From contig MDYQ01000165.1 of assembly GCA_003024175.1 (NCBI GenBank), positions 1 through 64,000 on the forward strand: 64,000 nucleotides of DNA, written 5' to 3'. Every line of letters begins with the position of its first letter. Positions within the stretch are counted from its first letter, which is position 1. Positions 4,008 to 51,670 of the stretch are shown in pieces. The notes beneath the pieces were generated by a model. The model searched no databases and was not told where the DNA came from. It saw only the letters and a list, made by a program, of their open reading frames with translations. The position numbers were made by a program, and so were the translations under genes. The DNA is from Planoprotostelium fungivorum (lineage: Eukaryota; Evosea; Variosea; Cavosteliida; Cavosteliaceae).

Positions 4008-7000
4008 ATGAGAAGACACACAACGATTCTCATCTTCTATATTCTTGTGTTTGCATCAGCTCAGCAGCATACAACCGACAATTGTGTATATTCAGATGAT
4101 TTGGGATACATTGATCTGGGATGGGCTGGAGGATTAGGCAGTTCCAAGTGAGATCGTTCTCCGATTCAGCATGATAACACCCTCTTAGCGGAAATTTCTA
4201 CATCGGAGAAGGTGATATCCAACTTCACTGGTCGCCTTGCGGGTAATGTGGATCTATGAGATTGTTCATTGATGTGGCACAGAGCTCTATCATATACGGA
4301 AGGAATCAGCCAGTATTGCGCTCAACAACAGCAACCCACTCTATGTATGGTTCTGACAGATCGAACTTTCAGCGCTGCGGTGAATGATACACGATTCCTA
4401 CGAGAGAACGGAGAGGTTCACTACAAGATGGATCTGCAGTGGAAACCTTCATATCTCGGTGCTCAACCGCTGACCATGGAGGCAGACATCCGCATCTACT
4501 GCGATGTCGATGCCCAGATACCCACTCTCAGTGCTCTCACTATCACCAACTCAAAGATGTCTCTGGTGTTTACAACGAGATGTCAAACGGTCAACCGAGA
4601 AATCATCGAAGGTGAGCGTTCTCTTCTCTCAAGCCTCTCACTTGGCAAGGAAATTCCGTGCAACATTTCGATGTATCATCGTACCCCATCAGGACGTACC
4701 AGAGCGGCGTCTACTTGTCCGCCGAGAACACAATCTGCACCAATTATACATACGAAGGAGGATACCGTTTGACCTTCACTTGCTCCATCCCCTCTACTTC
4801 CGGTGTCATACCTGCTCTTCTCTTGTCCAATGACTCCACCGTCACCATCGCATCCTTCGACTTGTATATCGTCAACCGAGGTGAAGATCACCAATGTTAG
4901 ATGAAACTAACGTATCCGCAGGCAAAATCGACATCAGTCACATCGATTCAACTCTGATCGGTGAGTCACGGTGGATATCTGAGCTGATCGACAATAGGGA
5001 TGAGGTACCTCACCTCCAGGAGCACATCTGCTCTCGATATAACCATCTCTGCTGATGACATCACGTGTGATTCCGACACATCCATCTTTTACGATGGTAA
5101 CTTCACTCTGCGAGGATCCGTGGAGTCTATGAGCCATCTATCAGGTGCGCCGTCACCCTCATCTTGTTGCTTACCAGAATAGAATGTTCTTTCGTCATAC
5201 AAGGAGGACAAGAGATCAGCGTGTATGACATCAATTGGACGAGCGTCTCTCTGAACAGGCCATTTCTCACGATCGATCGTGCTCTGGAGGTGAAATTATC
5301 AGACTGTGAATTCGATCAAGCCCCCCTCGACGATTTCGTTGCCCTCTTGTATGTCTCTGGTTCAGTGGATACCCTCTCTATCTTGAACACCGTCATCACT
5401 GAGGTGGGAAGCCATACAGACAGAGATGATGGATGACATGAGATAGGCCGGAAGGCCGAATGTTGGGGGAAGCATACGTCAGCTGATCGTCTCTTCTTCT
5501 TCTTTCACTTCGATGACAGTGAGTGTCGTATTTACGCTGATTCTGATGTATGCGGTAGTATCCCCTCACCGATGAAGATGCGGGATGTGTCTTGCCTTCC
5601 TCCGTATCCCACGTGACGATATCAGGGAGCACCTTTGATCTGTCCAATTGTGGCGTCAGGGGATTGAGGTTCCAGAAAGCGACAGTGAACATCACGGGCT
5701 CTGCATTCACCAACTCCTATTACGCCACATTGGAGCTGTTCAGAAGTAACGTCACGTATCAAGGGAACGTGATAACAAGTGTGTTTCATTCGAAGGGAGA
5801 TCGATCTTAACATCGACAGCATCGGGGAGTCTAGCCACGTACGTTTTCTTCCTCTCTTCTTGCAATTCCACTCTCACGAACAACACATTCGATTCCTTAT
5901 CGATGACCCCTCTTTCCATCTCTTTGGGGTATGCAGTCCTCAGTGATAATGTCTTCTCTAATAACGCCGGTCCATCGGGAGGTGAGAAGATGGTGATGAT
6001 CATCGTTAAATGTGTCAGCAATCAATGCTGTTCTGGCCAAATTGTTTGTATACCGAGACCGCTTCGAAAATAACGTCTCGTACGGGAGGTACAGCGGTAC
6101 GATCACTATCCTCGGTGGTGAGCATCATATGATTCATTCATCAATGACGCTGAATAGCAGTCGCATCCTTCTACAACGTTACTGGGGCTTACAATCTTGC
6201 AACCAATTCAGGGGGTTTATTCAACATTGCCAGCAGTGGCACACAACCCGTATTGATCGACGGACTGGTGTGCACCAACAATACAGCCCAAATGTATGGA
6301 GGTTGCATCAGTTGTTCGGGAAACACTGGCTCCCTTGTCATCAGAAGTGAGACGTCCCCTCCCAATTCATCTCAAATAGTATCATCAAAGAACATCTCAG
6401 ATAACCTTGATCACTCTCGTGATTTCACATCGATCTGATATGAATCAGATGCGCTGATCGAGGGAAATGTGGCACTGCTAGGCGGAGCCATCTACGCATT
6501 CGGCACACCACCCAATCTCACCGTAGAGAACGTCATCATCCGTAACAACCAATCCCCCACAGCGGGTGGTGGTATCTATCTGGGACAAAACAAAGGTTCC
6601 ACAACATTGAGGAACATCACCTTCTCACAGAACTCTGGTTCCTTCACTGGAGGTGCTCTCCTCATCAACTTTGGATTCGATACCTCCTGGGGTTCCATGG
6701 GTTACGTTCAACTCAACGTAGAGAATCTCCGTTTCTACAACAACACCGCCACGTCAGGTGCTGCCATCGCCAACATCGGAGCTGTGAGTGAAGGAAGGTG
6801 GATCGAACTGACGTGGACAGATCGATCGATTGAGCTTGAGTGATTGTGTGATGGCAGGGAACGTGGGGCTGGAGGGTGTGGGGCTGTACTCGAGGGGCAC
6901 CGTGGGAGAGATGACTCTCAGAGGTGTGGAAGTGAGTGGTCAAGGGTCCATCTTAGGAGGAGCCATCAAGCTGACCGGTAACATCACTCGACTCAGTGAG

Positions 7001-10000
7001 AAGTACCGTTATATTCTCTTGTTAAACGATACAGACATCTATCATAGCACTTTCAAGAGGAACACGGCGCTATCGAATGGAGGTTCCATCTATCAGGTGA
7101 GATACCACGAGAGAACTGTGAATGATGACGAGAAGGACGGCCCAATGGGAAGCGTTGGAATCTACAATTGTAATTTTGAAGACAGCTCTGCCTCCTACGG
7201 AGGTGCCATTCAACTGGTTTCAACATCGCCGGCTGAGCTCTACCTGATTGGTGAATTCTATGTGTCTTATCTGATCTGACACGACCAGGTAACACCTTCA
7301 ACAATAACAGTGCCACAATATCAGGGGGAAGCATATTCCTCTCGGGGTACAACCATGTGACCATGTCGAACAACACTTGTACGAACAGCTCAGCACTTTC
7401 TTCTGGTGGCTGCCTATGGATGAGCCGTACAAATGCTGTAAGTGACATTCACATGTGATAGAGATTCACTCACGATAGTCGAATGCAACAATCAGTGGGA
7501 ATACATTCGTCAGGAATAGATCACCACGGGGTTCTGTGATCTATTCAGATGGCGACGCCTTAGATACGATCATCACGTGTAGCGGCAATCAAATAGACAA
7601 GAACAACGCCACGGCCGGTGGAGGTATCGAGCTGTCAGGAATATTGATTCTCCGTGTGGATCGCGACACGATGCAGTTCAACCATGTGAGTCCGTATCAT
7701 AACCAGTGAATGACAATAGTAGGGTATGTATGGGGTGTACTATCTCACCGATTCATCTATCTTCGGATTGTACATCACGGGAGTCCGTGCCAGTGACAAC
7801 ATCGCATCGGCTGACGGAGGAGTGGTCACGCTATCAGGCTCACCCATGCAAGAGAGCAGAATCGTGAGTAGTGATCTTCAAGGGTAAGTGTGAACCGATC
7901 GATTGAGCCTCTGATGGAACGATCGTACAGGAACACGGCTGGAAGCAATGGAGGAGCGTTATTCATATCAATCAGAGCGAGCCTATGGAAAACGGAGCTC
8001 ATGAATAATTCTATGATGAATAATGCAGCTTCTGTGGGAGGAGCTATCTACATATCTTCAGGTGACACATGGATCGATGATAGATCTGACGGAAAAAGGA
8101 GCGGATGTCAACATCACAAATGTAGATCTGAGACACAATTCCGCCGAGATAGGAGGAGCGATACACCTCGAAAGCAAAGGAAACTCACACATAGAAAGCT
8201 GCAAGTTCGATAGCAACACGGCAGAAGGTACTGGCGGGGCGATGCACTTGAACAGTGAGAGTTCATCTATGGATCATAGAATAACAGAAGAACAGTCACG
8301 GGACAGAGTACAATTAGTAACAGTGTCATGATCAACAACACGGCCGTGGAAGGTGGATCGATCTTTGTAACTCAAGCCAATGCAACTCTTTTTATTCATC
8401 AATGTACTCTGAATGCTAATTCGGCCTCCAATTCTGGTGGTGCGATCAGTCTGATGGGTAAGATCAACAGAGATATCAATCGACTCAAATATAATCAGCA
8501 AATGGAGGCGGCGCAAGTGTGAACGATTGCTCTATGGATGCGAACTCTGCAGCAGATGGCGGGGCCTTATATATCGCTCAGCAGAGTGCAGATGTATCGC
8601 TGATGAATAACACCATCAATCAAAACAAGGCATACAGATCTGGAGGAGCCGTATTCGTGACAAGTAGATGATATCTAGAAAAATAGAGATTGACCAACAC
8701 AGATTACTACGGAAATACGACGATCAACAGCTGCACACTCGTTGATAATTCTGCCAACAACGGAGGTGCCATTCACGGGTCTGTTGTTGGGGAAACCATT
8801 CTCTTAGTAGACTCCATCCTGAATAACAATTACGCCAATCAAAATGGGGGTGCCATACTTATCTCATGTGAGTCTGTCTCTTCTAAACTAAAATTAATGA
8901 TGAGCCAGCTTACGACGGTGCCACCACAATACACGGATCGCTCTTCACACGCAATGGATGTGGCATGGAAGGAGGTGCTGCCCTGTTGAATCAATCGACC
9001 GGAGTATCACGCAGCAGCAAACAGTCGATCAATCAACTCTACAACTCTACCTTCACTTCAAATCAGGCATCCATCGGAGGAGGACTGTCGATCTATCAGT
9101 CCACTGATTTGGTCAATTGCCGGCTCTCTCAAAACACTGCTGCAAGAGGATCAGGCATCAATTTAGCTTCTGGTACTCTTCATTTGAACGGATCACAGTG
9201 AGTGAATAATGCAATCATTGATACTCAATCAGAGACAGGATATCGGACGAGACTGTGTCCATATCTTCCTCCGGAATCATGATCACATCAGATCCTGACG
9301 CACTCAACATCCAGTGTAATCCCGGCAGCGCCCCACAGACTCACACAGGTGATATCTGTGACAAACCAGAAGATCTGAACTTGAACAGATGGAACGATCT
9401 CTTGTGAAGAAGTCATGAAAGACACATCTCATATGCCGTTGAGTCGAGCAGCCATCGCAGGCATCGTGATAGGATGTTTCGTGCTGCTCTCGATCACGAT
9501 CGTTGCCATCTTCCTTCTCGTGAGGAGGAGACAGAAGAGGAGGATGAAAGAGAGAATGGAGGCGGAGATGCAGAGATTGAACGTATCGGACTTGATGTTA
9601 GACCACATTGTCGTAAGAAGATCCAATGGTGATAAGATGGCTCACCTCTTCAGGTGGAGGAGGTTATCGGTCACGGAAACTTTGGCCAGGTCTACAGAGG
9701 ACTGTGGAACGAAACCGTCGTCGCTCTCAAAGGAATCAAGGTATTACTCTTCCGTTACTCTCGTTAACATAGTTGTGCAGACGACAAGTACCACGGAAGA
9801 GTCTGAGTTCAGAAAAGAGATCGTACTTCTGAAGAAGCTGAATCATCCGGTGAGTTTATACATCATGTGCGATGTATCTCATCATAATAGAATGTTGTGA
9901 ATCTTCTGGGTGTTACTACACACAATGACCACTTCTTGATGGTATTAGAATTTGTAGAAGGAGGTTCTCTCGATGGGTGATTTTGTATACGGATCGAATC

Positions 10001-12157: not shown

Positions 12158-15100
12158 CTACAGGAAAGCAAACTCTGTGACCAGTTGTTTGGAATTTGGT
12201 CTCTGCAGAGGATCCATACTGAGGCAGCGATTCATGATCTGAATGATGGGCTCCAATGAATGATCCGTGATGGTTGGAACAGGTGGCATGATGCCTCTCA
12301 TGATCGCATCGGGGATGTCGATCTGATTCATGTGGTGATACGGTGTCTTCAATGTCAGCAGCTCCACAATCAACATCCCGAAAGACCAAACTGTACCGTC
12401 TCAGTCGCACATCCATCGATCTTCCTCACTATCAGATTGCACCGAGTATCCCTTGCTCTTGTTGTACACCTCGGGAGCGATGAACGCAGGTGTCCCTATT
12501 CACGTCAGACTCTCCCCTCAATCTTCACTCACCTGCCACGGTGGAAGGATTGTTCTCCTCCGTGATGACTCGACTCGTGTCGAAGTCAGTGATCTTGACG
12601 AGTTTGATGCAGTCCTGTTCGTCCAAGGCGACGAGAACGTTTCCACTCTTGAGATCTCTGTGTACGATGGGCTTCTCTCCAAAGTGAAGGTAAGCCAATC
12701 CCTTCGCGACGGAGAGGCAGCATTTGGTGATCTGCTTGTAGGGGAAAGGTACTCCCCTCCTCTTCTGGATCACGCTGTGCAGGGAGAATGGATAATACTC
12801 CATGAACAGACGGACCTGTGGTCTGCATCAGAGACGAAGGATGTGAAGGAGAGGTGATGGATCGTATGATACGAGAGGAATACCTTGTTGTCCTTCAGGT
12901 CGTGTCCGAGGTACCTGACGATATTATCGTGATACAGCGTCTCGATCAGCAACACTTCGTCGAGAAAAGCCGACTGAGTTTCCGGCAGGGCATCTTGCAG
13001 GTTCAGAATCTTGACGGCACAAGTGAAGCCCTGCAGACTGCATCGATAGACAGAAGCTCCAGAGCCTCCCGTGCCCAGTTTCTCAAAGATCTCCACCGTG
13101 TCGAAATCATAGGAAGACTGTTCGTTCTTGAGATTCCTGACGTTCAGTCGATCGGACGGTGCGCTGTTGGAGGAGGATTGCATCGTGTTTCTCTTGCTCA
13201 TGAGACTGGACGGTATGTAATTCGGCGTCACGTTATAACTGAAGAAGTACTTTCCACTCGTCTTGGATCTACCGACGGATTCCGCGATGAAGCTGATGAC
13301 CTCGTCCACTCAGTCCTCTCCTCTGTCTTACATCTCACCTGGAATGAACTCTCCGTCACGGCCCCAGGTGCACAGTTGATGGTGATCCTCACTCTCTGTG
13401 ATTTGTGCTGATCGAATGTGAGAGGGAGGATGTAACATGGACTCACAGCTTTCAATTGGAAGACGGAAGGATTGACGTCGACCGTGTGGGATGTGGCTTG
13501 TATGGTCATGGTACGGACGTTAGCGTTGATGGCACTGGGGTTCGTGATCTCGGCATCCACGTACGAGGTGGTCGTCTCTCTCTCCAATCTAAAGGATGGT
13601 GTCTCCACGACATCGCACGTCAACCAAGGTGCCTCGATGTTCTCTGTTCAAGTCGTCAGCTGCATCGTCTGTCGCATCACTCACTCTCAATTCTCCTCTG
13701 TATGGCTCTGTCTTGAATGTTTCGCAGGAGCTTCAGTGGGATTTCAGCCATCTTATCTCTGACTTCCGTGTCTAAAAATCGATTGTCTTCGTCCATGACG
13801 CTGTCTTTCCATCAGAATCATCTCTCAACATCCTTCACCTCTGCATGAATTGAAGGGAGGACGTGTATTGATGATCGTCCAGCAGACAGTAGTGAGAGTA
13901 GCCACAGGACACGTTGGTGAAAAATAACCTCTGAGCCTGCTTCGAAGACAAGAGTCTGGGGATCAACTGATGAGAGGCCATCTTCTCTCCTGATAATCTT
14001 CCCCACACGTAAGCTCTCCCATTATCGCTGACGCAGGCACTGGTTCCACTTCCAGCTGAGATCTGCACGATCACGGGGGCAACGTTGTCGATCGATCCCG
14101 CCGTTGGAAATAAAACTTCTCCCGGTTCGTTCTGTTTCTTCGTTCTCCTCCCCAGCTCCCCTATACAATTTCACTTCAATTCTTCTGTCCTCACAACTAC
14201 AATCGTGATGCATCATTTCGATCTCACCTGTCGTGTTACTTCCCCAGGAGAAGAGAGTACCGTCAGTGAACAAGGACATCGAGTGGGTGGTGCCTGCTGC
14301 CACATTCTTCACCATCTTGACGAGAGGAATGATGGTCGGTGAATGGACGCAGAACTGCGTCAGGTTCGACGTCGATGTCGGAATGGTTCCACCCTGGCCC
14401 AATTGTCCGTGGTTGTTGTATCCCCAACCAAATAACATTCCTGCATCTGAGAGGATCAGTTGTGGGAGATTGGGTAGAGGAGGACTTACTGTTGACGGCG
14501 ATCGTGTGGTGACCTCCGCAGGCGATCTGGGTGATCACCTGTGATTTGAGGGAGATCAAGAGAGTCGGTTTCTTGAATACGGTCCTCAGCTTACTCCTCC
14601 CCGTCTTACTGTTCTTCACCATGCTGTTCTCTAATCCCCTGCTTCTCGTCATTCTATCGTTCACGACATTGAAATGTGAGAGAACGAAGATGATGAATGA
14701 AGGAGATGGAATGAATGACGAGAGAGGAATGAAAGGTAGAACTCACAGTTGTCCCTCGTGATTGAGACCCCACATATAAACGGAGCCATCGGTCAGTACG
14801 GCACCCGTATGTACACCACCGCAAGAGATGGAGGCCAAATGAACACCACTGGGCAGAGGGATCTTGACAGGTCCAGGTTCTTTGAAATATCCCTTTCCCC
14901 TCCCCAGCTGACCGGCGATCTCGTAGTTGTGCTCGATCTGCAGCCTCTTCTTGTTCTCCTCTCCATTTATACCGATAATGGAGCAATTGATGTTGTATCC
15001 CCAACTGTGGACTTTTCCGTTGCTACACACGGCCACGCTGTGGAACGGTCCACTGCTCGCCCTCTCGAATCTGAAACCTCTTTCAGTCTCCTCCCTTCTC

Positions 15101-16577
15101 TTCTTCTCACCGATCGAACTCTGTGGCCGGCGTGAATTCGAATACGCTCTGATTGAGAGGCTGAGATGAACCCAAGACAATGGGGGAGATCTCTCTTGAT
15201 CCAACGGTGATCATCCTCCCCGTGTTGGCTGTTTCAGTCAGTTCTTGTCGTCGTTTGGTCTCACCATCCACGGCACTGATCGTGTTGTCTCCACAGTCGG
15301 CCGTGGTCACACCTGATCAGATGAGATGAAGCGATGGAGGACATTCGATGTCATAGTCTATACGATGATGTGACGCGTGAGATAGTGTAAGACGATCACC
15401 TGTGAAAATGCCGCCCATGGACCACAGATCACCACCAGCAGCGACCATCGGAGAAGAAGAGAGTGACTACCTGCGTCACTCTCGTCTCTCTCTTCATCTC
15501 ACCTTTAGAAAAGTTTCCCTGTTCTTCTTATCTGGCTCGTTCTTCTTCTTCTCCAAGTGGGCTTCGTAGCTGCTCATCGATTGACTGTGATCGTCGTAGA
15601 AACATCCCAAGAGATTCACTCCGTGCACTCTCTCGTTCCTGCCGATGGGCTCCACCACTGATGACGATCAGTAAGAACGCTCATGTGATCAACAGAGAGG
15701 ATGAAGTCAGACGTCGATGATGCGATGCACATGGGAGATGACTCACCGCTCTCCGAACGAAGAGACACCGGCTCTGATTTAGAGGATGCAGAGTGGATCG
15801 ATGTCGGTGGACTCTCTACGGTGTCGTCGTTCAATGACATCTTGCGAATGCCTTCTGAACCATTGAGAGATCCCAACTTTCTCTCTTCAGTAAAATCTTC
15901 TCGTGTGATGCTCACTGGACTCCTAGTATGCAGAGGATAGTTGGTGGCCTCTCTGATCGCGGTTATTTCAGAGATGATGTCTTACGATGATCCACCTGAC
16001 GGGTAATGCAACGGTGCTCCTCGTCCAATGCGATGGGGACTTTGCATCTTCTTCATTGGGGACGTCATTCGAGCTGCTTCTGGGTGATACTCTCGGTGAT
16101 ACTCTCGGTGAGTGATCCGGTGAGGCAGCCAGTGGTACTTTCAGTGTGGGTACCTGTTGGGGTAAATGATTCGCGATCGGAATGGAGTCACCTGATATGG
16201 AAGATCTTGTATACGAGAGGGGACGTCTGCGTCGCTGTTCAAAGGAGAGTTGTGTGAGCTGATGCTGTGAGATAATTGAGGTTGGGGTGTCCCTTGCGCT
16301 CCCTCCCCAGAAGAACTATACTCTTTAAATCGTGATATACCCTCTAAAATCTTCTTTCTCGTTCCCAGTTTGATGCCGATCGCCTCCATCTCCTGAGCGT
16401 TCAAAGAAATGACATCTGCTGGTTCGAGAATCTCTTCAGCTTCGAATATTTGAAGGGTAGCGTCTAAGATCGGTCCAATTAATAGTGCATGTTGTGAGAG
16501 CCATTCACGAAGATCTAAAAAGTCGAAATGATTAGGGATGGTTCAGTCAACATTCAAGATCTCGTACCTGTATTCAT
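12158..16577 (-). CDS. SAM - RCC1 repeats - protein kinase
   Basis: Multi-domain signalling protein in many short exons. The proposed start at 16577 (MNTDLREWLSQHALL) leads through a 53-nt intron into a SAM domain ending GIKLGTRKKILEGI. A serine-rich linker (including in-frame SPRVSPRVSP) follows. RCC1 beta-propeller repeats are coded at about 13840-15210: HSVAVCSNGKVHSWGYN, HTGAVLTDGSVYMWGLN, HTIAVN, HSMSLFTDGTLFSWGSN and ACVSDNGRAYVWG. Next is a beta-sandwich-like segment (NPSAINANVRTMTI) at about 13400-13620. The C-terminal kinase has glycine loop GTGGSGASVY, CAVKIL, HRDLKSGNVL and a DFD triad in place of DFG, then GMLIVELLTLKTPY and RPNSKQL. HRDLKSGN suggests a Ser/Thr or TKL-type kinase. 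It shares a divergent promoter region with the CDK gene. Substrates are unknown. Confidence 0.8.
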
Positions 16578-16925: not shown

Positions 16926-18250
<1,325 letters not shown>

Positions 18251-18568
18251 TCCATCCCCTTGATTCTGTTCTATTCGAGTAGACGTTGGTCCTTGTATGA
18301 CGACGTACAGAATAAATAATAACCGACACTTTTCATCCGGCTTTATTATCTACTACTACTCTCTCTTGTGTAATACACATGTCTGTCGCGTCGTCTTCAG
18401 TGTTGTACGGCGGCTCCGTTCGCTCGTTGTAATTGTAATTGTGCTTGTCTCCTCAACCTATCTACGTCAGCTCTTCTTCTTCTCTTCCCTCTCACTTGTT
18501 GCTGTAGACTCCAAAAGGCTCCGAATAGATCTTCTCCTCGTGTGACGTCGATCCCTTCACTCGGTATG
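18251..18568. other. convergent intergenic region
   Basis: This joins the 3' ends of the CDK (+) and the low-complexity protein gene (-). The sequence aataaataataa at about 18311 could serve as a polyadenylation signal for the CDK. The rest is T-rich and codes for nothing I recognise. Confidence 0.5.
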
Positions 18569-20049: not shown

Positions 20050-20453
20050 TAGGTTGTGGAGTCCGTGGGTGATGTTTGTTCTCCCAAAGTTGGATGAGCA
20101 GACCACCCAAAGAGAAAGCTCGCAGGTTGTCGACAAAAAACAGTTCCCATACAACCGAATCATAGAATTTATGTTCTTTCCGCTGTCACCACTCAAGGGA
20201 AATTCTACGGACTTGCTGCTAGTCCGCTCTCTCTCCTGTCCCCCTACATCACCGAGGTATGAGGAAGGGCATCGTTTCTGAGCAGCCTCAGGAGAGACAC
20301 AGATAGAAGAGATAATAGAGAGAGTGACCCAAGATATATCCCACACGCAGACATTTACGATCCCTATAAGGGGTCCAGGTCACGCCTTACAAGACCCACA
20401 TCCATAGGGACGATCCCATAGGGGTCTGGGTGTGCCGATGTTTTATTTCTATT
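20050..20453. other. intergenic region between two minus-strand genes
   Basis: This holds the 3' flank of the plexin-like gene and the presumed promoter of the low-complexity protein. Minus-strand sequence upstream of 20049 stays open in the same frame to about 20346, so the protein could start earlier. An imperfect direct repeat lies at 20357-20436. Confidence 0.4.
20357..20436. repeat. imperfect direct repeat, two copies of about 28 bp
   Basis: The first copy at 20357-20386 reads acgatccctataaggggtcc and continues aggtcacgcc. The second at 20410-20436 reads acgatcccataggggtctgg and continues gtgtgcc. They differ by a few substitutions and small gaps. They lie between two minus-strand genes and could be a regulatory site or chance. 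Confidence 0.55.
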
Positions 20454-23400
20454 TTAAATCTTATCGAACTCGGTGCCTTGGACGCAGGCCAGGAGGTCCT
20501 TCGAGAGGTCAGATGATAATTCATCTCCGCCCTTCTCACCTGTAGCTCTGGTTTCGGCTCGATCTTGTTTCTGTTCCTGACGATAAAGTTGTGCATCCAA
20601 GCCAGGGCGTTGTCTCGGGTCGTCTGTCTGGTGTCGGCAATTATCGGCCAACTCAAGACTCACCTCTGGGATGACAACAGACGGGCCCTCTGCTGTAGCT
20701 GGCACGTCCGTCTGTGGAGCTGTGAGATTCATAGGGGTGGACGTGATGAAAGGTGGAAGATCTTCATAGGGTGGTGGGACTCACCGTGATACGGTCGTAG
20801 AGCTGATGGAGAGGTGGAAGGTTGTCGATGATGAACTGATCCAGTTTCACCATGTGCTCCGCTTTCAGACTCGGCAGCGTCTCGTTGGCCAGATTCTGCA
20901 TGACTGCGCGAGTGAGAAGAATCAAAGACATCCGAATTCACCTCTGCTGACTAAGACGAGCATTCGTTGAGCGGATGCACTGGGTGGTTTCTGAAGGAGG
21001 TGATACACGTGTGGCGCCACGATGCTGGGCACGACGTAACGCAAGAACATGAACGAACCGACGGCCTTCTGTTCTGAGTTGGGGTACCTCTCCCCCACCA
21101 GCTGTCTGATCTGTTTCAAGATCCTCCTGAATTCCCTACCACCGTCACTCTCTCTCTCGTTCTCTCGCTGGACTCACGGTGACATAGCATCCGATTTTCT
21201 TATGCGAGTGAAGATCTTAGATAGAACGGCCAAGAGCTGGTAGATGTTGGCGTCCATAAAATCCTTCTCCTCCTGCCCGATCTTGTCCGGATCCACCTGA
21301 TGACGTCAATCCACGTCACCATGACGTCATCACCTCCATGTTGATGGTCTCGGTGTTGGGTGAGTCACCGTCGGGTGCTTGCACGATGATGTCCCAGATG
21401 GGTGAGGCCAACACCTTCCACAGGTACTCTAATCCATTGATCTTCGCGTATGAAGTGAACATGGAAGTGGACACGCTCGTTAGACGGAAGAGTGTTGTCT
21501 CTTGTTCTGATGGGGCGTCATTCGATGTCGTTCGAATCGTTCTCACTCGTCTTATCGATCTCGATGTTGATGTATCTCAGTAAGAGACGGGATGGTACGT
21601 CTCTGCCTCGGTACATGGCCAGGTACATGTAAAACTTTCCAAATTGGTCTTGTTCGTTACCGGAGGGTATACTGCTCAAGGCTCTCGCACGTTCGATGTC
21701 TGTCATCATTCAGAGAAGGGAGAGACCATCGTACTCACTGTTGTCCATCAGAAGCTCTTCTAATTGCGCCAATTTGGGACGAACGGATGCTGGAATGTTG
21801 AACATGGGCGACGTGTCCTTCTCTAATCCTACGGTGGAGAAATCTGGGGGAGGAGGTAGACTGTGTTGATGAGAGGATGATTCAAGTGATGATGTCACCT
21901 GATGTCCTTTCCCTGTGATTCGCGTCTCTTGCGGATGAAGACGATGGCAACGATGACGATGATGATGAGGATCACTACCAGACCTACGACCACTCCGATG
22001 ATGATGTACTCGGTGGTCTGACGATGAGATCAACGATGTGATGATGAAATCGACGATGACGACGAAGGGATGATGTGATGGAGATCACCTTAGAGGGTGG
22101 TGCTGGTGGTGGAAGGATTGCATCTGTGTTCGAAGTGGAAGCAGGGCAGGACATACCATTGCGGACGAGAGTACCGAGATCACACGTGCCGTTCCAAGCA
22201 CAACCGTAAGGTGATCTGACGCATTTTTCACACGTGTCCAGTGTGGGACAGTCTGATAGCATTCAGATGATCTGTCCGATGCATCTCCGGCTTCGATCTC
22301 TCACCGTATACGACAAAAACGGAGGGCAAGCGATCGAAATATTGATCCAAGTGATAGATGGATGCCTGTCAAGAGTGAGTGAACTGACTCACAGAAACGA
22401 ATCACGTTGTATCGCCCCGGAGTCAGAGTGGATCCATCCAGCGTGTAGTTTCCACCATTTCCATCCGATGTGGCCTGTCGTTTCTGGCTGATAGGAACCA
22501 TGGCTATCGATTGACTAAACAATCGTGAGAACGTTGTATCGATCGAAGATACGCTCACTTTGTATTCTCAGTGAGAGAGTAGAGGAGAGCGGAATAATTG
22601 TTTGGACTTGGATTGTACCACAGACTGATGAGAATGCTCTGACCCAGGGGGAAGGATGCACTGCTCACCTTCGGTGATGCCACTGTGACTCTTCAGAACG
22701 AAGAGAGAGATGTCTGTGTCTCACGTTGGCATTGTACACCGACGTAAAACGACAGACTCGCATTGAGCGGTGTGTACTGTGTTGCCGTGACACAAGGGAG
22801 GTTGGTGTTGCTCGTGTTGCATTGATTCTGACACCAATTGCACACTGTACTCAATAGACAGCTCGTGCAGTTGGTCAACGAAACGCAATCTGTACACGTG
22901 AGACGTTTGATGTGATTCCATTCTTCTCACCAACGATGGTGAGTGTGATCGTCGCCGTATTATTCATGAATGTAGAACCCAATGCGTCCACCTGTGTCAC
23001 GTTCACCTGTTGATCATCAGATTTGAGGTATCGATCGGGTTATGTACGTTGTAAGTTCCTCTCAAGGTCGTGTTCTTGGACAGAGTGAATTGAAGTTGAG
23101 TGTCATTGATGTAGACCAAGGGAGCTGTATAATTCTCTTGTCCTCTGGCATAATTCCACGTGTAATTCGCTGTCGATCGGTCAGTCTTCAGTAAGAGACA
23201 CTCTTACCTGATGATTTGAAATTTCCAGTGAAAGTCAACGTGTAATCTTTCACTCCTACGGCGAATTCAGTGGGCGAGATGGAAGAGAAGTGAGGAACGT
23301 CTTGCAGCCAGGAAGTGACGTTGGTACAGTCGATCCTGTGAGTGCACAGACCTGTCCTCTCGTTAATCTCGATCTCTCATCTTCGTCTCACTCAAGTAAT

Positions 23401-25293
23401 TGCACCAGCCACAGCCGACGGGTGTGACCAGAGCCATACAATCATCGATGGTATCGGCCACACTACAATCCGTGTAGGTGTATGTGAAGTTGTTTTGAGT
23501 GTAGGGAGCGATCGAATTTTTGTATCTCACGTACACGGTCACATTATCACTCTCTGCTGATCGATGAGATCATTCCACCAGAAGCATGATGATGAGGATG
23601 AGCTGATTACTCACCCGTAGAGTTGGCGAGAGTATGAGGAGGGGTCATACACTGAAGGTTGACCGAGCCGTTCGTCGATTTATACGCAATAGCTTGTACT
23701 GGCTTATCATCGATCACACAGGCTACACATCTCAGTCACATATCTATCTATCCACTCACTCCAATTGCCTGTTGGATTGTGGTACATGGACAGATGAATG
23801 GTCATATTCAGGGTCGTGTTACCACTGATGGGACCAAGAGAAGGAGTGGTATCATTCATGGTGGGACATTGACTCGTTTCACTGTAGAGCGTACCATAGG
23901 CATAGTTGTTCGGTGCCGTTCGATCGACGCAGATGACATCCACTTCGTTCCACATACTGCAAAGATTCAGCTGGGTGGATCAATGTCTCTCACCAATAAG
24001 TGGGATCGTTCTTAGTACACGAGATGCAGTCTACGTTTTTCGAACAGCCTATCTAGATCAACGACCATGAAATGTCCTTCTCTCTCACTGGAGACGGAGA
24101 CGTATCTGATTGAGGGAGTGGAAGTGGTTACATATGCAATCTGATCCGTTGAACTGAGGAAAGTCATGCTACCCGAGCCTCCACTACCCAGAGGCGTCAT
24201 CGTGTGATCCTGATCAAGTCAGTCATAGGCACGAAGGAGCATCACTCACATCTAATCCTCGAGAGATGTTACCGTTGTTGTCCATCCAATAGATCACTTG
24301 ATTGTTGATGTCCACGGTCAGCGATGTCACGCGAGAGGTTGGATCCGACAAGATGGCATAGTCTTGGTAGGATAGAGTCAATCCATCGGAGGAGAGTGTG
24401 TTGATGATGGCAAATCCGACATTGTTCAGGATCATGATGACGTTCGTCACGCTGGACATGTGAGCTCGATGGATGATGATGAGCCGATGATGGCTGGTCT
24501 CACTTGTTGGCGGTGAAGACGGAACAATTAGAGAAACTGCCACTGCCCAGGGTGATCGTCTTGTTGAATGCGGGTGTCGTTTGTGCAAAAGTGTTGAGTT
24601 GCATGTAACCGGTGAGGGTGGAAGAATAACTGAAGGAATATTTTCCAGAGCAGACGAAATTTGGAGTCGTCGTGGCTGTGTTGCGTGAGAAGATGACAGG
24701 AGATGTCTGACTCACTCCAATTGGTGAATTGGACGGTTCCATTGAAAGCATAGGCCAATCGATTATCCCAGAGAATGAAATTCGTCTTGAAAGAGTTAGT
24801 GTCTGCATCGACTCACTTCACTCACGGGATTGAGCGGTGGATCCATCAGCATAAGGGCAGCTGCATTGTTCTGCTTGATTGCGATAGGAATGCTGAAATT
24901 CTAAGGAAGATCAATGAGGTGAATTTCTAGGTTTCAACTTACCGATGAGATGCTATTTGTTCGAGAATTGATAATCAAGATCCAGGAAATAGAACCAGAA
25001 CTGGAAGGGATGACAACCACTGCTGCTTCCGCATCGGCATTGTAATTTATGAACGGGATGGGAGAGGAGACAGTAATCGGTACACTAAATGTATTATTCT
25101 GACCGTTGGATAACGGCTGAGATGAATTAGCTCGATAAATTCGTCTCATTACCTTCAATGTTACAGTATACTGATTGGCTCCCATCATGCCCGAAATGCG
25201 GAGGGTAGAATTTCCAAAGAGGAAAGTGTTATCATAAGCTGATACAATCAGAGGAATGATCAAGAGGAGAAGGTTTAGAGGTAGCCCCCTCAT
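20454..25293 (-). CDS. plexin-like receptor: PSI/IPT-type ectodomain, TM, cytoplasmic RasGAP
   Basis: Large type I membrane protein in many exons. The start at 25293 gives a signal peptide (MRGLPLNLLLLIIPLIVSAY). The ectodomain has a segment like a YWTD/NHL propeller blade (SLTVDINNQVIYWMDNNG, near 24280-24340). After it come PSI-type cysteine modules (NCTSCLLSTVCNWCQNQC near 22830-22870; CEKCVRSPYGCAWNGTC near 22180-22240) and IPT-like strands (TPSLGPISGNTTLNMTI near 23830). The TM helix IIIGVVVGLVVILIIIVIVA is coded at about 21930-21995, followed by RKRRES. The cytoplasmic part is a RasGAP domain: TLFRLTSVSTSMF, with the arginine-finger position (FR), then YLWKVL, DFMDANIYQLL and the hallmark FMFLRYVVPSIVAP. 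The last exons read ITAPQTDVP, NALAWMHNFIV and DLLACVQGTEFDKI. Extracellular PSI/IPT plus cytoplasmic GAP is the layout of plexins. A semaphorin domain was not recognised, so orthology to animal plexins is not claimed. Confidence 0.8.
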
Positions 25294-25431
25294 TCCGATG
25301 ACTTTTGTGTGCGCGTCCTTCTGTCAGGGCGGAATGCTGAGACATCTGGCAGAATAAACGTACTTTTATTTGAGAATTATCTCTCGTCGGACTTCTGCAC
25401 ACACCCCATTCTTTTCGGGTCATCAATCGCA

Positions 25432-26204: not shown

Positions 26205-29200
26205 CTATTCGATCATTCGCGCCAGCCTGGGTGTGTTCTCTATGGCATCAAAGATGTCGTTCTTCTGGAAAGGTTTCGTGATGTAGACGTTCATGCCGAT
26301 CGCTTTGGCCGTCTGCATGTGCGTCTCTCTCGCGTTGGCAGACACTCCGATGATGAGTGTGGGATCACATTTCTGTTGCTGTTCGAACTCTCTGATCTTC
26401 TTCGTCGCTTCCACTCCATTCATGATGGGCATCTGTTTCATCATCAGATCACCATCGATTGTATGACTCTCCACTCACCTCAAAGTCCATGAGAATGGCA
26501 TAGAAAGACCTCCCCGAAGCATAAACACTGCGAGCCTGCCCTCGTCAGCTCCCCTGCATCCTCCCTCTCACCTTATCGAATGCCTCTTGACCATTATCCG
26601 CCAATTCCGTCGAATAACCTTGTGATTCTAAGATCTTCTTCAACAACTTTTGGTTGATCATGTTATCTTCCACGATGAGGATCTTCTTCGTCACGTTCGA
26701 TCTCTTGGCTGGCCTCTCTTCGATTTCATTACGCTGGGGTGATGAAGAAGAGGAAGAGGTCTGCAGTTGGTTGGCGAAGGAAGGTCTCTTCCTCTTTGTG
26801 CTCTCGAAGGGTGGCACGCGGCACGTCACGTTGAAGAAGCAGCTGGAGCCCACACCTGACATCGATTTAGATCTACGGTGATCATGTGATGCAAGACAAG
26901 AACGTGTCTCTCTTAGAGGATGATGGATGATGGATGTCGCATGTGATAAAGATTGTATCTCACCCTTCTGGCTGGTGATGCCTATGGTACCACCCATCAT
27001 CTCGATGATCTCTTTCGTGATCTTCAAGCCCAAGCCAGAACCTCCATACTTTGAAAAGATGGTCGAGTTGGCCTGAGAGAAAGGTTGGAAGAGCTTCGAC
27101 ATCTCTTGTTCTGTCATGCCGATGCCCGTGTCTTTCACCGTGAAGATCAACTTGACTTGATCTGCCTCCATCATCTCGTGGTGACAGCTGACCGTCAAGC
27201 CTCCCTTGTGCATGAACTTGACCGAGTTCGATATGATGTTGATCAATGCTTGACTCAGCCTGACGAAGCATCAGAATAGATGAAATGAATTTCATCACCT
27301 CTGTGGGTCTCCGATGGCCTGTAACTCTGGGTCTGATATCTCAGGTGTGTAAGTCAATCCTCTCTCCATCAACTTCGCCTTGTACATCAATCCGACCTAC
27401 ATCAAGTCAACTCTCTTCTTCCATCGATTCAACACCTTATCGATGATGTCGGCGGGCTTGAATACGACATCTTGCAACTTGATGCCCTTCTTCTCGATCA
27501 TGGAGGCCGTCAGGACCGTATCGACGATGTCTTTCAGATGATCTGATGATACCGAGATGGCATCCAGCATCTCCCCCAACTCATCCACTTTGTGCAATAT
27601 CTTCTCTTGCGCTTCATCATCGATGCGATTGAGAGTGAGATACTCTCTCAGATGTGACACCTACATCCGATCAGTTTGATTTCTTGTCCTCAGCTCACTT
27701 GATCGGACATCAATTGCTTGCTACCGTAGATACCATTCCTGATCTCATCAATATATCTCGATGCATTCATCTCACAGTGGATTTCTCAGCTCGTGACACA
27801 AGACATCGATGAACTCTTCGAGTCCCTTCTTCACCACGGCTAACTCTGTGGCCAATGCACGATGTCTGTATCGATTAGAAGGTGAAAGGTAATTCGATTT
27901 ACCTCTTTTCGGATTCGAGAAGGTGAGAGAACTTGGCGTTATCTAAATGCATGGCCATCTGTACAGCTATGATGCCCACGACCTATCATTCATTAAAGTT
28001 CATCCTTAACTCTTTCACTCACCTTTGCCCTCTGATCGTTGAACGCATTGTTGATGAGATTGTTATCTAGATAGATGACACCTTTAAATCGATTGTTATT
28101 GATGATGGGCATGCACAATATGGACTTCGTGTCGTTATTCTGCAGCCACTGACTCGACTCGAACGATTGAGCTCCTGCGGACGATCAGTCACCTCTTCAT
28201 CTTCTCTCTCACCTTTTCGATCTCCTATGATGACCGTCTCTTTCGTCCGGGCGACATAGTTGATGATGTTGTGAGGATAATTGCTCATGCTGTGAAGTGA
28301 TACGGCCCTGAGAGAGTCCACGTTCATCCTCTCGATGTCACCTTCCGCAACGACAAGTAGATCTCCGTTGTTCTCTTGGAGTAGAAAGATTCCTCTCTGT
28401 GCGGCCGCGTTCTCGATCAATAGTCTCATCGTCGTATCGAGCAGCTTCTCCAGGGACATATCGGCAGACGTTGATTCGGAGATCTTGATCATGATCTGCA
28501 CCATAGATCAGGACCGATCGTAAAGTCGAAATCCATCATTACAGATGGGATCTGAACGTACCTGCATGTCGATGGTAGAATCTAAATCGTAAGCCTTATC
28601 TCTCGCCATCGGCGGTGGTGTCTGCATCGGCTTATTCTTATCGATCCCCAACGACAGCTTCAGAACATCAGACGATCCACTCGATTGGACGACGGGTGAT
28701 CTCCTCGTCTTGCTCTGCGCGATGATGCTCGAATGATTCCCCTTGGAAGAATTCATCTTCAATTCGAAGCCTGTGGATAATACGGAGATGTATCCAGGAT
28801 AGTCTTCGGTCATCTGAGCCAATTTGGCGGACGAGCCCCATTCACGGTAGAGACGGAACGATTCTTCCAAGTGGTTCTTGGCGTAGTCCTTCTGTCCCAG
28901 CGTGATCCACAGTTGTCCGAGTAATTCTGAGCTGAGGGCTTCGTATTGGAGGAAGCCGTACGAAGATGCGGAGGCTTTCGCTTCTTTGTAGTAGAGGATG
29001 GCTTCGAGTGATTTTCCTTCTCACGTTCATTTTCTCACGCGATGCATTATCTTCTCACCTTCACTCCTTGCCATTTCGGCGCGTAAGAGGCACAGTTTGT
29101 GGGCGTTGTTAGATGGACACGTCTGAGATATCTTCTCGAATATTTCAACGTACTCCTTCTGTCGATTCAGATAAAAGTCTGCTCGTTCTTCTGAAATGAC

Positions 29201-34438: not shown

Positions 34439-37400
34439 TCATCTCTCATCAACTCCTTTATTTTTCAAGATGACAGCGTCACGATTGATAGTTATCTGCA
34501 TCATCATTGTACACTGTTCCACGTCAGCTTGTATGAAGAGCGACTCCATACCCCCAGCATCAGGTCCCATCGTCCCGTGGATCTCTTCTGGCGTCAACAT
34601 CTCGTACAGAGAAGTCATTGAAGAGTGAATGTCGATGAATCTAGGTCTCTTCTCTGCTTCGTACATCCAACACCTGTACTTATCAACTCCCTACATCACA
34701 GGAGACTCACTTTGAGAAGATGGCAAATAGCTCTTCCGGGCACCTCATCATCTTTCAGTGTCATTTCATGAACTTTCTCTTCACCTGTGAGGTCTTCCTA
34801 ATGTTCTCTTCTCTTCTACAACGTGCCGGATGACGTCCTGATTCGTACCTAATTCCCAGTACGGAACTGTACTCGTCAGTCTACAACGTACCTGATGAGA
34901 TTTGCCACTCACCCAGGCCGAACGAGAAGATCTCCCTGATAAGAGGTCAGTTGTGTCAAAGGGAAGCACGACATATCACCAGGCTAAAACACCGAAACTC
35001 CAGACATCACTCTCGTAGCTCGTCTTTCTCTGTTGGATGGCCTCAGGGGCAGACCACCTGTCCGAGATGAAATTGAATCGAAATTTCGATCGAATGTCAC
35101 CTGTAGGGTAGAAGATCTGACTTTGCCTCGTATTCACTCTGGATGCGGCTCATACCAAAGTCCGAAATCTGGAGAAATAAGATGAAACCATATACCAAAC
35201 TTCAAGTTCATCGATTCACCTTACACCGTTTCGAACGGTCGACGAGAATGTTTCTCGCCGCCAGATCTCTGTGTACGATGCCCTTACCCTGCAGATATAA
35301 CATTCCCTTCACCACATCGAAACACATGAAGATCAAATCATTATCCGTCAGACTTCTCTGCTGCTTCCTCAGGTAACTGTGAATCGTTCAGAAGTGCGTG
35401 ACGATCCACTCGGCGTTCACTCTTTGAGAGAGCCCTCGTCCACGTATTCTAAGACCATGAGGTACTGTTCATCGTGCAGTATGACACCCAAGAAACGAAC
35501 GATGTTGGGATGATTGAGGTTCTTCAGTAGAACAATCTCCGCCTTCCATTTGCTATCGTTCGTCTTGTCCGGCTGAGAGGGTGAGTCGAGTGTGGTTATA
35601 TGGTCTCACCGATACTCCCTTCAGGGCTACGGTCGTTGCGTCCCAACTGCAAGTGTGTCAATTTATGCCTGAACGAATCGTTCATGATGAATCGCGAGTA
35701 CTCACGTTCCCCGGTAGACTTTTCCGAAATTTCCACTATCGATGACTCCTTTCACCTGTACAAGATCAGATGTCTGTTTCTTAACGATGAGATCGATTGA
35801 AATAGACGATCTCTAGTTTCAACACTCACGACAACGTTTCTGAGGAGGAGAGGATACAGATCATCCGATGTTTCAGCTTCCACTTGGTGATATCGCTCGA
35901 GAGCTCTCTTCTTGAATCTGAGGAACATGATGAAGATGAATGTGAGGAGAAGTACCGCTGCAACCACCACCGCCACGATGACGATCTTCTTCGTGATCGT
36001 ATCCTTTGGTGAATCAACGCAAGTCACTGTGGTGTCTGTTCTATGTCAGAAAACACAAGTAGAATGTGACGTCACTCTGTGATCGAGTCGTGTGGCCAGT
36101 TGGACAATCGATGAGATCCGTGATGGTGATATCACTCGTCAGTTGCGATCCGGGAGACAAGTAGATGTGATCTTTCGAGAAACTGAGAGAATGAGTCAAA
36201 TTGATGGAATAGTGTGAATCACCTGCTCTGTGTCGAATTCAATGTGCCGTTGTTCACGTAGACGGAGGCACCGAGGTAGGTGGCTGTGTTGCCCCAGAGG
36301 TGACATTCTGAGATTTGGACGTCACCGTCGGTGTATATGGCTCCACCGTTCTTGGCGGAATTATCCGCAAAATTGCTGGAGAATAGAAGGGGAATTGACA
36401 TGGCAGATCTCTTCTCTCCTTGTCTCCTCCACTTGATGTACAGAGCGCCTCCGTCTGATGCGTTGTTTGACATCATCGTACAATTATACACATCCACCGA
36501 GGTGTCCATCGCTGTGATATCTTCACATCCCGTCATCATCGATGAGCCATCATACCTTCGATGTAGATACTTCCTCCACTGTCTGCAGAGTTCGCCGAGA
36601 GAGAAACATCTCTCAGTTTGATAGAAGAGGAGACACCATTAAGATACACCGCTCCTCCATTTTGAACCGCTTCATTCCTATCGACGGTCAATCTTGTCGA
36701 CGTGCTCGCACTCACTGATTCAGATTGGACTCGGAGATGAGTAATGTCGATGCAGTCAATTCAGCAGAAATGACAGAACCATTCATCGCTGCTGAATTTC
36801 TCTCTCCAATAAGGCCGGTAAAATTCATACGACTAGATGTAGCTCGCACAGACAAGACACCTCGACTTACCTGCGAGAAGATTCACTTCGAATTGAATAT
36901 GATATCTCTCACCTGATTATCCAAGTAATGATCCGAATGGATGGTCACGTTCAATGTGCCCTGCAGATGAATGATAGCTCCCACCGTGGCCATGTTTGAA
37001 CCGAATTGATTCGAGCGACTGTAAACATCCGCGACCGCCCCCGTGATGTCTAACACGTCTCCATTTCGTGCCACGTTACGTTCCATCACGTTCTCCTCCA
37101 TCACAAGATCACCCTGACGTACATCAATACATCGATTGAATGGACATCGATATACACTCACTTGCGTCATCTTACACTTGATGACACTGCCACTGTCTGA
37201 AGCGACATTATTCGATAATTCGTTGTCCCTTAGAACAACGACATCAGCCTCAAGAACCAGCAAGGCCCCTCCGTCTTGATTCGAATAATTCTCTCTGAAT
37301 CGAGAATCTGATCCATTCAGACGAGGAAATTGAGATGATGGAATGATAAGCTCACCTCTTAATTCAGCGCGTGAGACTCTGAGAAAGACGGCACCCCCTC

Positions 37401-40400
37401 CCATCTCGGCCATGTTGTGTGACAGCGAACAGTTTGACATCTGAAGGTCCACGTCTCTCGCTTCGATCTGTCTTCCTTCAGCTCTCGCCCTCTCCTCCTT
37501 CTCACCGTGATACCACCGTTCGTGTCGACGTCGGTGACGTAAATAGCACCACCCATAGTGGCATTGTTTCCATAGAAAGTTGTGTTACCCAAATGGATGG
37601 CACCGCCTACGGATTCTCTGTAAGACACTTTGAGTGCTCCTCCGTACAGCCCGGCTTGATTATTTAAGAAGAGACTGTCACTGATGTAGATGTTGGGACA
37701 ACGAAAAGATGTGACGGCTCCTGGGATGGTTCGGTATCACGATACGTAACGTACGTACGTACCTCCGTTACCATGGCTGTTACCTTGGAAAGTCGAAGAA
37801 GTGATCTGGAGAACTCGAGCGCTTTCGATGAGAATAGTTCCACTACCGTCACTCACTCCACCGATAAAACGAGAAGAGTTCACGTAGACGAGGGCTGAGG
37901 GAACGTACACGTACACGGCCGTACCTGTCTGTGTCAGTCGTCACGAACGTGTCAGATATGTCACACCGATCAGTGCCTGACATCCTTCCGCAGTCACTGC
38001 GTCGAGACTGATCTTTGGCTCGGGTACGGTTGTAGAATGCTCGAAATAAGCCACTGGATTCCATTTCAATTCGTCGATTGAATCGTTCGATGTCATTTCA
38101 CCTGCACCGATGGGAGAATAACAAGATGTAGCTGTGATCTCACACATCTCTATGTCATCGATATAAGCTCTCTCCTATTATAATGTGAGACATAGCACGT
38201 TCTTTTGACTCACGTCAAAATAGAAGACTGGTGAAGAAGATACAGAAACTGCGGTGACATTGTAGATTTGAACCTTTGGAGTGTTGCAGTAAAAGTCTAA
38301 ACCTTGTCTGCACTGTGATAATTCGACGTTTGTGATTTGCACTCCACTCATCCAATATCCAGTGATGGATATACCCTTCACTCTCTCTACCCTGACGTCC
38401 TCCATTGTGATCTGTATAGGGTTCGATTTTCATGGCTGACACTTTTTCACCTACCTGTTGGCCCATGGTGGTGTCTAAGGATAATCCGGGTATGTAGACG
38501 TCTGTCGAGGCAGAGATGAAGAATCGTGAGATGTTCAGATAATTAATCTGGCCTGATATGCGGACGGCTGATGTGGCACTCTTGAAATTTTGAGACCAAG
38601 TGACGTTGATGTCGTGAAGAGTGATGGTGTATCCGGTAACTTGTATCTGCATCACCGCTACATAAATCTATTCAGTATGATGCATAGGCCAGAAACAAAT
38701 GTGTGATATAACGTGTAGATAGTGGTATATGCATGAATTGATAAGAATGGGATCATGATGTGCTCATCATGTGATCGTCGTGTGATGAATGATGCGGTCA
38801 CGATGAAAATTGAGACGAGACTCACCTGACGAAATTTCATTGGAATCCTCTGATACAATATTATCATCGATCGATGTGTATCCATCTACAGAGACGTTCC
38901 CCTTCGTGTTCGTCATCCTGATCGCTCCCGCCAGAGAAGTACCAACACATCCTCTTGTTGTAATGTTTCTCAATACGATATCATCACTCTTCGTATCTGT
39001 AATGGCCAGGGCAGCTGTACACATTCGATGAGAGATCTCGGTGAAAACTCACCGCTACCAAAATCCGTTTGAGAGCGATCGAACCACAAGTTGCTCAGCG
39101 TGATTCCTTTGGAAGTTGTGTACCTGAGGGACACGCTCGAGCCAGAAAATTTGGTGTCGTTGTAGATGAATAGATCGGATAGGGTGAGAGCATCGTGAGT
39201 GGAAGCAATGGTGATGCTGTCGTTCAGGTGGATGAGGTGAGTGAGGCTGATATCTGAATGCGAGTGAGAAATAAAATGAAATAAAATGGGTCACTTTGGA
39301 GAGAACAAGAGCGAGTCGTGGAGAGATAGAGAAGTCCTGCGGTGGATCTTGTCATGATGATGTCATGGATGGTCACTTGACCCAGACTGGCCTTATCTGA
39401 AGAGAAAAAGTTTGTATTGGCGGACAGTCCCTCCACATACACATCCTCCAATTCGAGTTGATATTTCAAGCCGAAAAGTGCTGGTGGATCATTCAGGGTC
39501 ATCCAATTGTCCCAGCCAGCCACAGATGAGTTGTGGACGGTCAAATTCTTCAAGTTCAGTTGGTTGTACGAACCATTGATGAAGATCGTGTGAGATTGCG
39601 TGTTGATGTTGCGAAACGAGTTATTCGTCATAACGATCGTATCGACGACAGACGACAAGATGATGATGGAGCTGACGCTGTCGATGGATGAGAAGGTACA
39701 GCCGATGATGCGAGTCGATAGGTTAGTTGCGGGAGAATTCTGTCTCTTCGCATTCAAGAAGGAAGAAGTGCCGCTGAAGGATGAATTGTAGAGGAGAATG
39801 GATGAATTCCGCATCAGGATGATCATGGATAGATCGTTCGATGGGTCCTGGATGGGTGAGACGATGATGATTTCGTGACTCTCACTCGTTGGCTGTAGAA
39901 GGTACTGTGTCGGATGATGATGTCACCACTCCCATTGTTGTAAAGCAGAACTCCCGCACTGACACTCTTGACCCGATTGAAGACGATGGAAACCTAACAA
40001 AAGTTATTTGGTGAGGTGGATATGCTCAACTCACTCGACCGAACATCTGGATGATGCCTGGAAGCCTCTTGGTGATACCCTGATCGATGGTCATATAGTT
40101 CGCTGTGAGTGTGCGTGGTTGTTCGCTACGATAAGAGATAGTCGAAAACGGGCCTCTGCTGGTTACACTGAGAACATCAGGAATCATTCGGTACTACCCC
40201 GATTCACCTGTTCAAGATCACATCCGAAGAATTGATCTGCAGCACTGTACAGGATGGCCCTCCAAGCACAGACAAATTTGTCAGGACGATGATTTGAAAT
40301 GATGTCAGATTGAAACCTGAGAGGGTAAGAAGAGATCTGCTATGAATGGCTCACATCCTTGAATCGCAGTTCCATCCCCTTGTCCAACAAGGTTCAATGA

Positions 40401-40633
40401 TTTACCCGTCCCATCTACCGTCATCCCGACGAAGAAGATACCTTCAGACAAGATGAACGTCAGGTCATCATGTTGTTGAAGATTACTCGTAATCACTGAG
40501 AGCATGAGACCGCTGTAGAATGTGATACATCATTCTCACCGACACCGAGATCGGCTGTCGCATTCACGTGGACAACAAAGTCCGACTTTGCAAAATGCCA
40601 TAAGAACAAGATGCAGAGAAGGATGCTCTTCAT
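34439..40633 (-). CDS. receptor tyrosine kinase with Pmp-like beta-helix ectodomain (RTK2)
   Basis: Second member of the RTK1 family, on the opposite strand. The start at 40633 gives a signal peptide (MKSILLCILFLWHFAKS). The ectodomain is coded at about 36060-40500. It combines Asn-rich beta-helix strands in its N-terminal half with GGA(I/V) repeats closer to the membrane (GGAIHLGNTTFYGNNATMGG, GGAIYTDGDVQ, GGALLVLE). The transmembrane helix (IVIVAVVVAAVLLLTFIFIM) is at about 35930-35995, then RFKKR. The kinase has SGNFGKVYRG, lysine in [16 protein letters not shown] near 35255, [25 protein letters not shown] and a C-lobe ending RPRFIDI. All catalytic residues of a tyrosine kinase are present. 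Domain order, the GNFG loop and intron style match RTK1, so the two share a recent family origin. The ectodomains are much more diverged than the kinase parts, as expected if they bind different things. Confidence 0.87.

Positions 40634-49238: not shown

Positions 49239-51670
<2,432 letters not shown>

Follow-up and report, generated by a model that had tools for sequence, protein, structure and literature searches.

Here we report that a 64,000-nucleotide stretch of the genome of the protist Planoprotostelium fungivorum (assembly GCA_003024175.1, contig MDYQ01000165.1, positions 1 to 64,000; hereafter the window) contains a gene for a predicted single-pass membrane protein, termed here receptor-RasGAP, in which PSI modules and IPT/TIG-like segments are joined through one transmembrane (TM) helix to a RasGAP domain. 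What is new is a plexin-shaped receptor with its own RasGAP, and with no match to Sema, in a protist. We consider it likely that the protein, as a receptor RasGAP, turns Ras off locally upon ligand binding, and that it was probably assembled independently of plexins. An earlier reading of the DNA letters (the sequence-only reading) had listed a signal peptide, PSI-type cysteine modules, IPT-like strands, one TM helix and a RasGAP domain; these elements are present, on the minus strand, which that reading had not specified.

A single gene model and its domains

The gene extends on the minus strand from 25293 to 20454, and its spliced reading frame comprises 1197 codons, from an ATG at 25293 (the first downstream of an in-frame stop) to a stop at 20454. 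The model is predicted: both strands were read, dynamic programming over exons and introns was run with codon scores from long open reading frames (ORFs) of the window, and the result was curated by eye. It contains 29 exons and 28 introns, all GT-AG, of 36-73 nucleotides (nt; median 40). With training that omitted this gene, the exon/intron score over 20380-25420 was 110.9 on the minus strand versus 7.8 on the opposite strand, and dinucleotide shuffles (n=30) gave a mean of 4.7 and a maximum of 9.4, so that the coding signal is not attributable to chance. The features assigned are as follows.

20454..25293, minus: whole gene, 29 exons, 1197-residue receptor-RasGAP (dynamic-programming models, eye-curated)
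25240..25293, minus: signal-peptide-like N-terminus, residues 1-18 (hydropathy)
24090..25239, minus: N-terminal extracellular region, residues 19-318, no fold match (Pfam, PDB and repeat tests)
24274-24339, minus: YWTD-like stretch, about residues 249-270 (by eye)
23866..24028, minus: PSI module 1, residues 320-361 (Pfam PSI 1e-5, 26.2 bits, above the cut-off of 23.1)
23477..23862, minus: IPT/TIG domain 1, residues 363-459 (Pfam TIG 2.4e-4, border-dependent)
23305..23467, minus: PSI module 2, residues 463-503 (Pfam PSI 2.5e-6, 28.2 bits, above cut-off)
22956..23286, minus: IPT/TIG-like domain 2, about residues 510-593 (Pfam TIG 1.3e-3, below cut-off)
22792..22887, minus: PSI module 3, residues 603-634 (Pfam PSI 1.6e-3 alone, below cut-off)
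22251..22728, minus: third inter-PSI segment, residues 656-755 (0 families matched)
22146..22250, minus: PSI module 4, juxtamembrane, residues 756-790 (Pfam PSI 1.8e-3 alone, below cut-off)
21934..22005, minus: single TM helix, about residues 814-837, then RKRR (hydropathy, sequence)
20884..21577, minus: RasGAP domain, residues 931-1106 (Pfam; PDB alignment to NF1 over about residues 890-1176)
21484..21486, minus: Arg948, arginine-finger column, TLFR (alignment with p120GAP and NF1)
21039..21041, minus: Arg1067, FLR motif (FMFLRYVVPSIVAP) (alignment)
20457..20883, minus: C-terminal part, residues 1107-1197 (first ~70 residues match the last part of the NF1 GAP structure)

The exon encoding the TM helix (22017-21899) joins its neighbors in frame on both sides, across introns of 71 and 38 nt; it contains the end of the stalk as well as the cytoplasmic RKRR, and the exons that follow continue in frame into RasGAP. 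Because introns of this length were taken as too short to accommodate a gene boundary, ectodomain and RasGAP were assigned to a single gene. It is highly improbable that two adjoining genes, one for a PSI/IPT membrane protein and one for a cytosolic RasGAP, were wrongly joined, an error to which a model built by computation and eye would be open. That origin of the model also counts against it more generally, as does the disagreement between automatic and curated versions at several introns, chiefly around residues 656-755 and past residue 1139; the least certain splice choices fall in the third inter-PSI segment (residues 656-755). A real single gene model encoding receptor-RasGAP, with the plexin-like domain order that the sequence-only reading had claimed, is nevertheless confirmed.

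From the N-terminus, a hydrophobic start is followed by a region of ~300 residues, four PSI modules alternating with three segments of ~100 residues, the TM helix and RasGAP. Signal peptide and TM helix were called from hydropathy, and both agree with the sequence-only reading: residues 1-18 are hydrophobic, and 19-residue windows starting at 814-819 reach 3.83. Outside the N-terminus, 1.6 is otherwise exceeded only at 78, a borderline case. N-x-S/T sequons are distributed in keeping with this topology, 32 of 33 lying N-terminal to the TM helix; the ectodomain total compares with 17.9 +/- 3.5 in shuffled sequences (0 of 2000 shuffles reach 32), and the cytoplasmic part has 1 versus 1.9 in shuffles.

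The cysteine modules proved to be of PSI type, as claimed, with a whole-protein Pfam match at 8.1e-13, above cut-off; scanned alone, two of the four exceed it. The sole PDB match of the ectodomain is the PSI of plexin-C1, on PSI module 2 (E 0.39). The segments between them are less clear. Scanned apart, segment 1 matches TIG across the full profile (2.4e-4, 21.5 bits versus a cut-off of 20.9) and TIG_plexin below cut-off (8.8e-3), and segment 2 matches TIG below cut-off (1.3e-3, 19.1 bits); five shuffled segments gave zero TIG matches. Set against an IPT assignment are the effects of the borders chosen: longer ones lower segment 1 to 20.6 bits, below cut-off, and no TIG match is left for segment 2 when it is taken as a piece of 120 residues. 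The whole-protein Pfam scan lists no TIG at E up to 10, and segment 3 matches neither TIG nor another Pfam family under either set of borders. Segment 2 also matches DUF7497 (1.1e-3) and, more weakly, bacterial Ig families (0.013-0.12), and for this reason we describe it as IPT-like, not as proven IPT. The IPT-like strands noted earlier thus have marginal TIG matches in two of three segments, one just over the cut-off and one under it.

The sequence-only reading had further inferred that the outer region looks like a YWTD/NHL-like propeller, which was not confirmed: a single YWTD-like stretch is seen by eye, to which profile, PDB and repeat searches lent no support. Pfam scans of the N-terminal region, whole and in three sub-pieces, returned no propeller family, and the 40-residue YWTD-like piece gave a weak annexin match (0.19). 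Internal repeats were not evident (best lag z 1.93, at lag 65; 27 of 300 shuffles reach the best local score). Against the PDB, this region hit a chitinase at 0.049 and a lectin at 0.88, both taken as chance. A propeller at residues 19-318 is neither supported nor excluded.

The cytoplasmic RasGAP domain

The RasGAP domain (PF00616) is recovered in the whole-protein Pfam scan at 1.9e-23 (83.9 bits versus a cut-off of 28.3). Its nearest relatives in the PDB (phmmer) are NF1 (2.1e-26) and p120GAP (1.5e-17), followed by SynGAP (1e-8), IQGAP2 (2.3e-5) and IQGAP1 (8.4e-4); plexins are absent from the matches up to E 1. When eight GAP domains are aligned, the identities are 29.7% with NF1, 25.9% with p120GAP, 19-21% with the IQGAPs and 14-17% with plexins. 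The alignment places Arg948 in the arginine-finger column, in agreement with the arginine (TLFR) singled out by the sequence-only reading, and Arg1067 in the FLR column, the columns being named by p120GAP and NF1 residue numbers. Thr944 is the same as in p120GAP.

These features suggest that the cytoplasmic domain is a canonical GAP of the neurofibromin/p120 type and that it is probably active. Its residue at position 1099 weighs on the other side: it is Arg, whereas NF1, p120GAP and the two IQGAPs have Lys and plexins have Gln. Together with an FLR motif that continues PS instead of PA, this substitution could be read as the mark of a pseudo-GAP, which would recruit active Ras as IQGAPs do and not switch it off. 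We regard that as unlikely, since the finger Arg948 and the FLR Arg1067 are present and Thr944 is as in p120GAP, whereas both IQGAPs have Thr in the finger column and YYR in place of FLR (alignment; also the accessible text of PMC12871552).

Neurofibromin and p120GAP (RASA1), the nearest RasGAP domains both in the PDB and by identity, are not known to span the membrane. Neurofibromin differs further in having CRAL/TRIO (Sec14) and PH-like domains past its GAP; here ~90 residues are left, and the Pfam scan found no such family, nor any other additional one, in the C-terminal part (residues 1107-1197).

Relation to plexins and descent

Plexins share with receptor-RasGAP an extracellular N-terminal region, alternation of PSI with IPT or IPT-like segments, one TM helix, a cytoplasmic RasGAP fold and arginines in the finger and FLR columns. 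They differ in having Sema, six IPT domains and a Rho-binding insert (according to the accessible text of PMC6374515), whereas receptor-RasGAP has no Sema match, at most three IPT domains and no such insert; it has instead four PSI modules, the last beside the membrane, and a canonical RasGAP in place of Plexin_cytopl. The profile search that the sequence-only reading had proposed returned PSI and RasGAP above cut-offs, TIG marginally, and no Sema, either in the whole protein or in the N-terminal piece, at E up to 10 (most matches weaker than 0.1 being removed by the filters of HMMER). Read to the same limit, the whole-protein scan likewise lacked Plexin_cytopl (PF08337) and Plexin_RBD (PF20170). 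As a control, plexin-A1 scanned against Pfam in the same way gave Plexin_cytopl at 7.2e-190 (631.9 bits) and Plexin_RBD at 2.2e-47 (160.2 bits), with RasGAP sub-threshold (25.8 bits versus 28.3), and NF1 gave RasGAP at 6.4e-35. By the features tested the protein is not a plexin; these profiles portray a counterpart of plexins in layout, made of different parts.

Whether that layout arose twice was approached with a tree of RasGAP domains, a check the earlier reading had also suggested. Eight rows were included (the domain of receptor-RasGAP, NF1, p120GAP, IQGAP1, IQGAP2, and plexins A1, A3 and B1), leaving aside SynGAP and plexins B2, C1 and D1, and the window row was not placed. The maximum-likelihood tree separates the three plexins from the other five rows at 100/100, which says little because the plexins resemble one another closely and the branches adjoining the window row have values of 49/13 and 72/83; given this weak placement, the tree is not counted in favor of independent origin. 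A repeat on a second alignment, identical in likelihood, does not serve as an independent check. In the approximately unbiased (AU) test, grouping the receptor-RasGAP domain with plexins cost 0.25 log-likelihood units (p-AU 0.355).

Two further points weigh against the reading of an independently assembled receptor RasGAP. None of the AU groupings was rejected (plexins as above; NF1, 0.21; p120GAP, 0.363; IQGAPs, 0.196), and the GAP data consequently do not decide between independent and very old common origin. Searches for relatives in viral and prokaryotic contigs turned up 10 and 27 hits by pattern, of which none was confirmed, with a single-sequence query that detects only close relatives; a megablast of 4001 bases against phages had no match, and such contig and phage searches are uninformative on eukaryotic relatives. 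Within the window, profiles that included the gene itself detected no second copy, with no PSI below E 0.2 and no RasGAP below 0.9 outside the gene.

Under a common origin, a PSI-IPT-TM-RasGAP receptor with a canonical RasGAP would predate the split of amoebozoans and opisthokonts, and plexins would be descendants that gained Sema and the RBD insert while their GAP diverged. The AU result with plexin GAPs would allow this, the PSI-IPT-PSI-IPT-PSI alternation agrees with the plexin stalk, and there are weak, sub-threshold matches to TIG_plexin and PSI_PlexinA-B. We nevertheless judge it improbable: pairwise scores of this RasGAP against three plexin GAPs are -1 to -2 bits, whereas p120GAP and plexin-B1 score 18-19 bits, and several losses would be needed, as the survey in PMC6374515 (accessible text) regards plexins as having arisen newly in Choanozoa, with Sema proteins found in neither Capsaspora nor Creolimax. 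That survey, as far as its accessible text describes, searched by Sema sequences and keywords, so that a receptor lacking Sema would have escaped it. Assembly independent of plexins is favored as most likely, though not proven, on three grounds: what the family profiles show, the lack of both Sema and RBD, and a distribution of plexins reported to be confined to choanoflagellates and animals (PMC6374515, accessible text). The independent origin favored by the sequence-only reading thus gains from the profiles and from pairwise scores nearer neurofibromin and p120GAP; its propeller argument is unsupported, and the AU test keeps the plexin grouping. Repeated emergence of domain combinations is reported to be common, and by estimate about 25% of those in eukaryotes have more than one origin (PMC3499355, accessible text).

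Among other amoebozoan surface proteins, those of the Dictyostelium tgr genes are likewise IPT/TIG proteins, which are not known to carry a RasGAP domain. IPT/TIG proteins are numerous in amoebozoan proteomes: the accessible portion of PMC4931340 gives 55 for D. discoideum, and 42 and 5 in columns labeled PhyP and AC, which we read as Physarum and Acanthamoeba. A Physarum RasGAP-PB1-PAS-SAM protein has a different layout, and the words "plexin", "IPT", "PSI" and "TIG" do not occur in the accessible text of its source (PMC4758236). Literature searches yielded no such receptor in titles or abstract beginnings among the matches listed, and those pairing plexin and Amoebozoa with either RasGAP or IPT returned 0 papers, most subscription papers being outside their coverage.

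Neighboring genes and predicted role

Other genes of the window encode assorted signaling proteins and enzymes. Two large predicted proteins (3986-9957, plus; 34876-40633, minus) have many short repeats, beta-helix-like by eye, a TM-like stretch and the start of a kinase domain; in the latter, one ORF matches Chlam_PMP (1.2e-4) and the kinase piece, the only one of the two scanned, matches PK_Tyr_Ser-Thr (3.3e-24). About 19 kb from receptor-RasGAP, one predicted chain (43840-47907, minus) combines RhoGAP (1.4e-11) and RasGEF (5.3e-32). Also on the minus strand are a hybrid histidine kinase (~26205-28813; GAF 3.4e-5, HATPase_c 8.6e-23, receiver 4.9e-6, below cut-off on the ORF); a DOCK-like protein (60029-63831; DOCK-C2 3.8e-26), with one X in its translation reflecting at least one ambiguous base; a predicted gene at 12158-15577 that unites RCC1 repeats (1.3e-14) with a protein kinase domain (6.4e-8); a serine-esterase-like DUF676 protein (49594-50046; 9.2e-20); and an acyl-CoA oxidase (1083-2576; 1.5e-50), whose 498-residue ORF is the longest of the 61 window ORFs of at least 125 residues. 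The plus strand encodes a protein that by eye resembles cyclin-dependent kinases (17020-18432; Pkinase 1.6e-68) and a DUF4246 protein across two ORFs (55485-56683; 6.6e-34 and 4.3e-20). Scans of the window for tRNA and Rfam families had no match. The signaling genes among these neighbors, taken with the short introns, suggest an amoebozoan host, possibly a protostelid.

The domain order, the single gene, the finger arginine and the FLR motif are read directly from the model; from here we infer a response to ligand and a shut-off of Ras. As a type I single-pass receptor, the protein would bind a ligand or another cell surface through its N-terminal region and its PSI-IPT-PSI-IPT-PSI-x-PSI stalk. 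Ligand binding or clustering would rearrange the receptor, the rearranged receptor would bring its GAP to membrane-bound Ras-GTP, and the local end of Ras signaling may lessen protrusion driven by actin, macroendocytosis or adhesion. Neurofibromin has Ras as its main target. Both Ras and Rap are targets of GAP1, SynGAP and probably plexins (PMC12871552, accessible text); the target here may be Ras, Rap or both. RasGAPs of Dictyostelium restrain macropinocytosis and phagocytosis (accessible text of PMC4374526 and PMC12871552), and by analogy receptor-RasGAP would tie such restraint to an outside cue.

The accessible text of PMC6374515 regards plexins as new to animals and choanoflagellates, a view on which a second PSI/IPT-TM-GAP receptor in a distant protist bears directly. 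If this wiring has been found twice, it would constitute a testable design rule; otherwise, it would be far older than animals. Receptor-RasGAP is also a candidate for a receptor that directly shuts off Ras in amoeboid cells.

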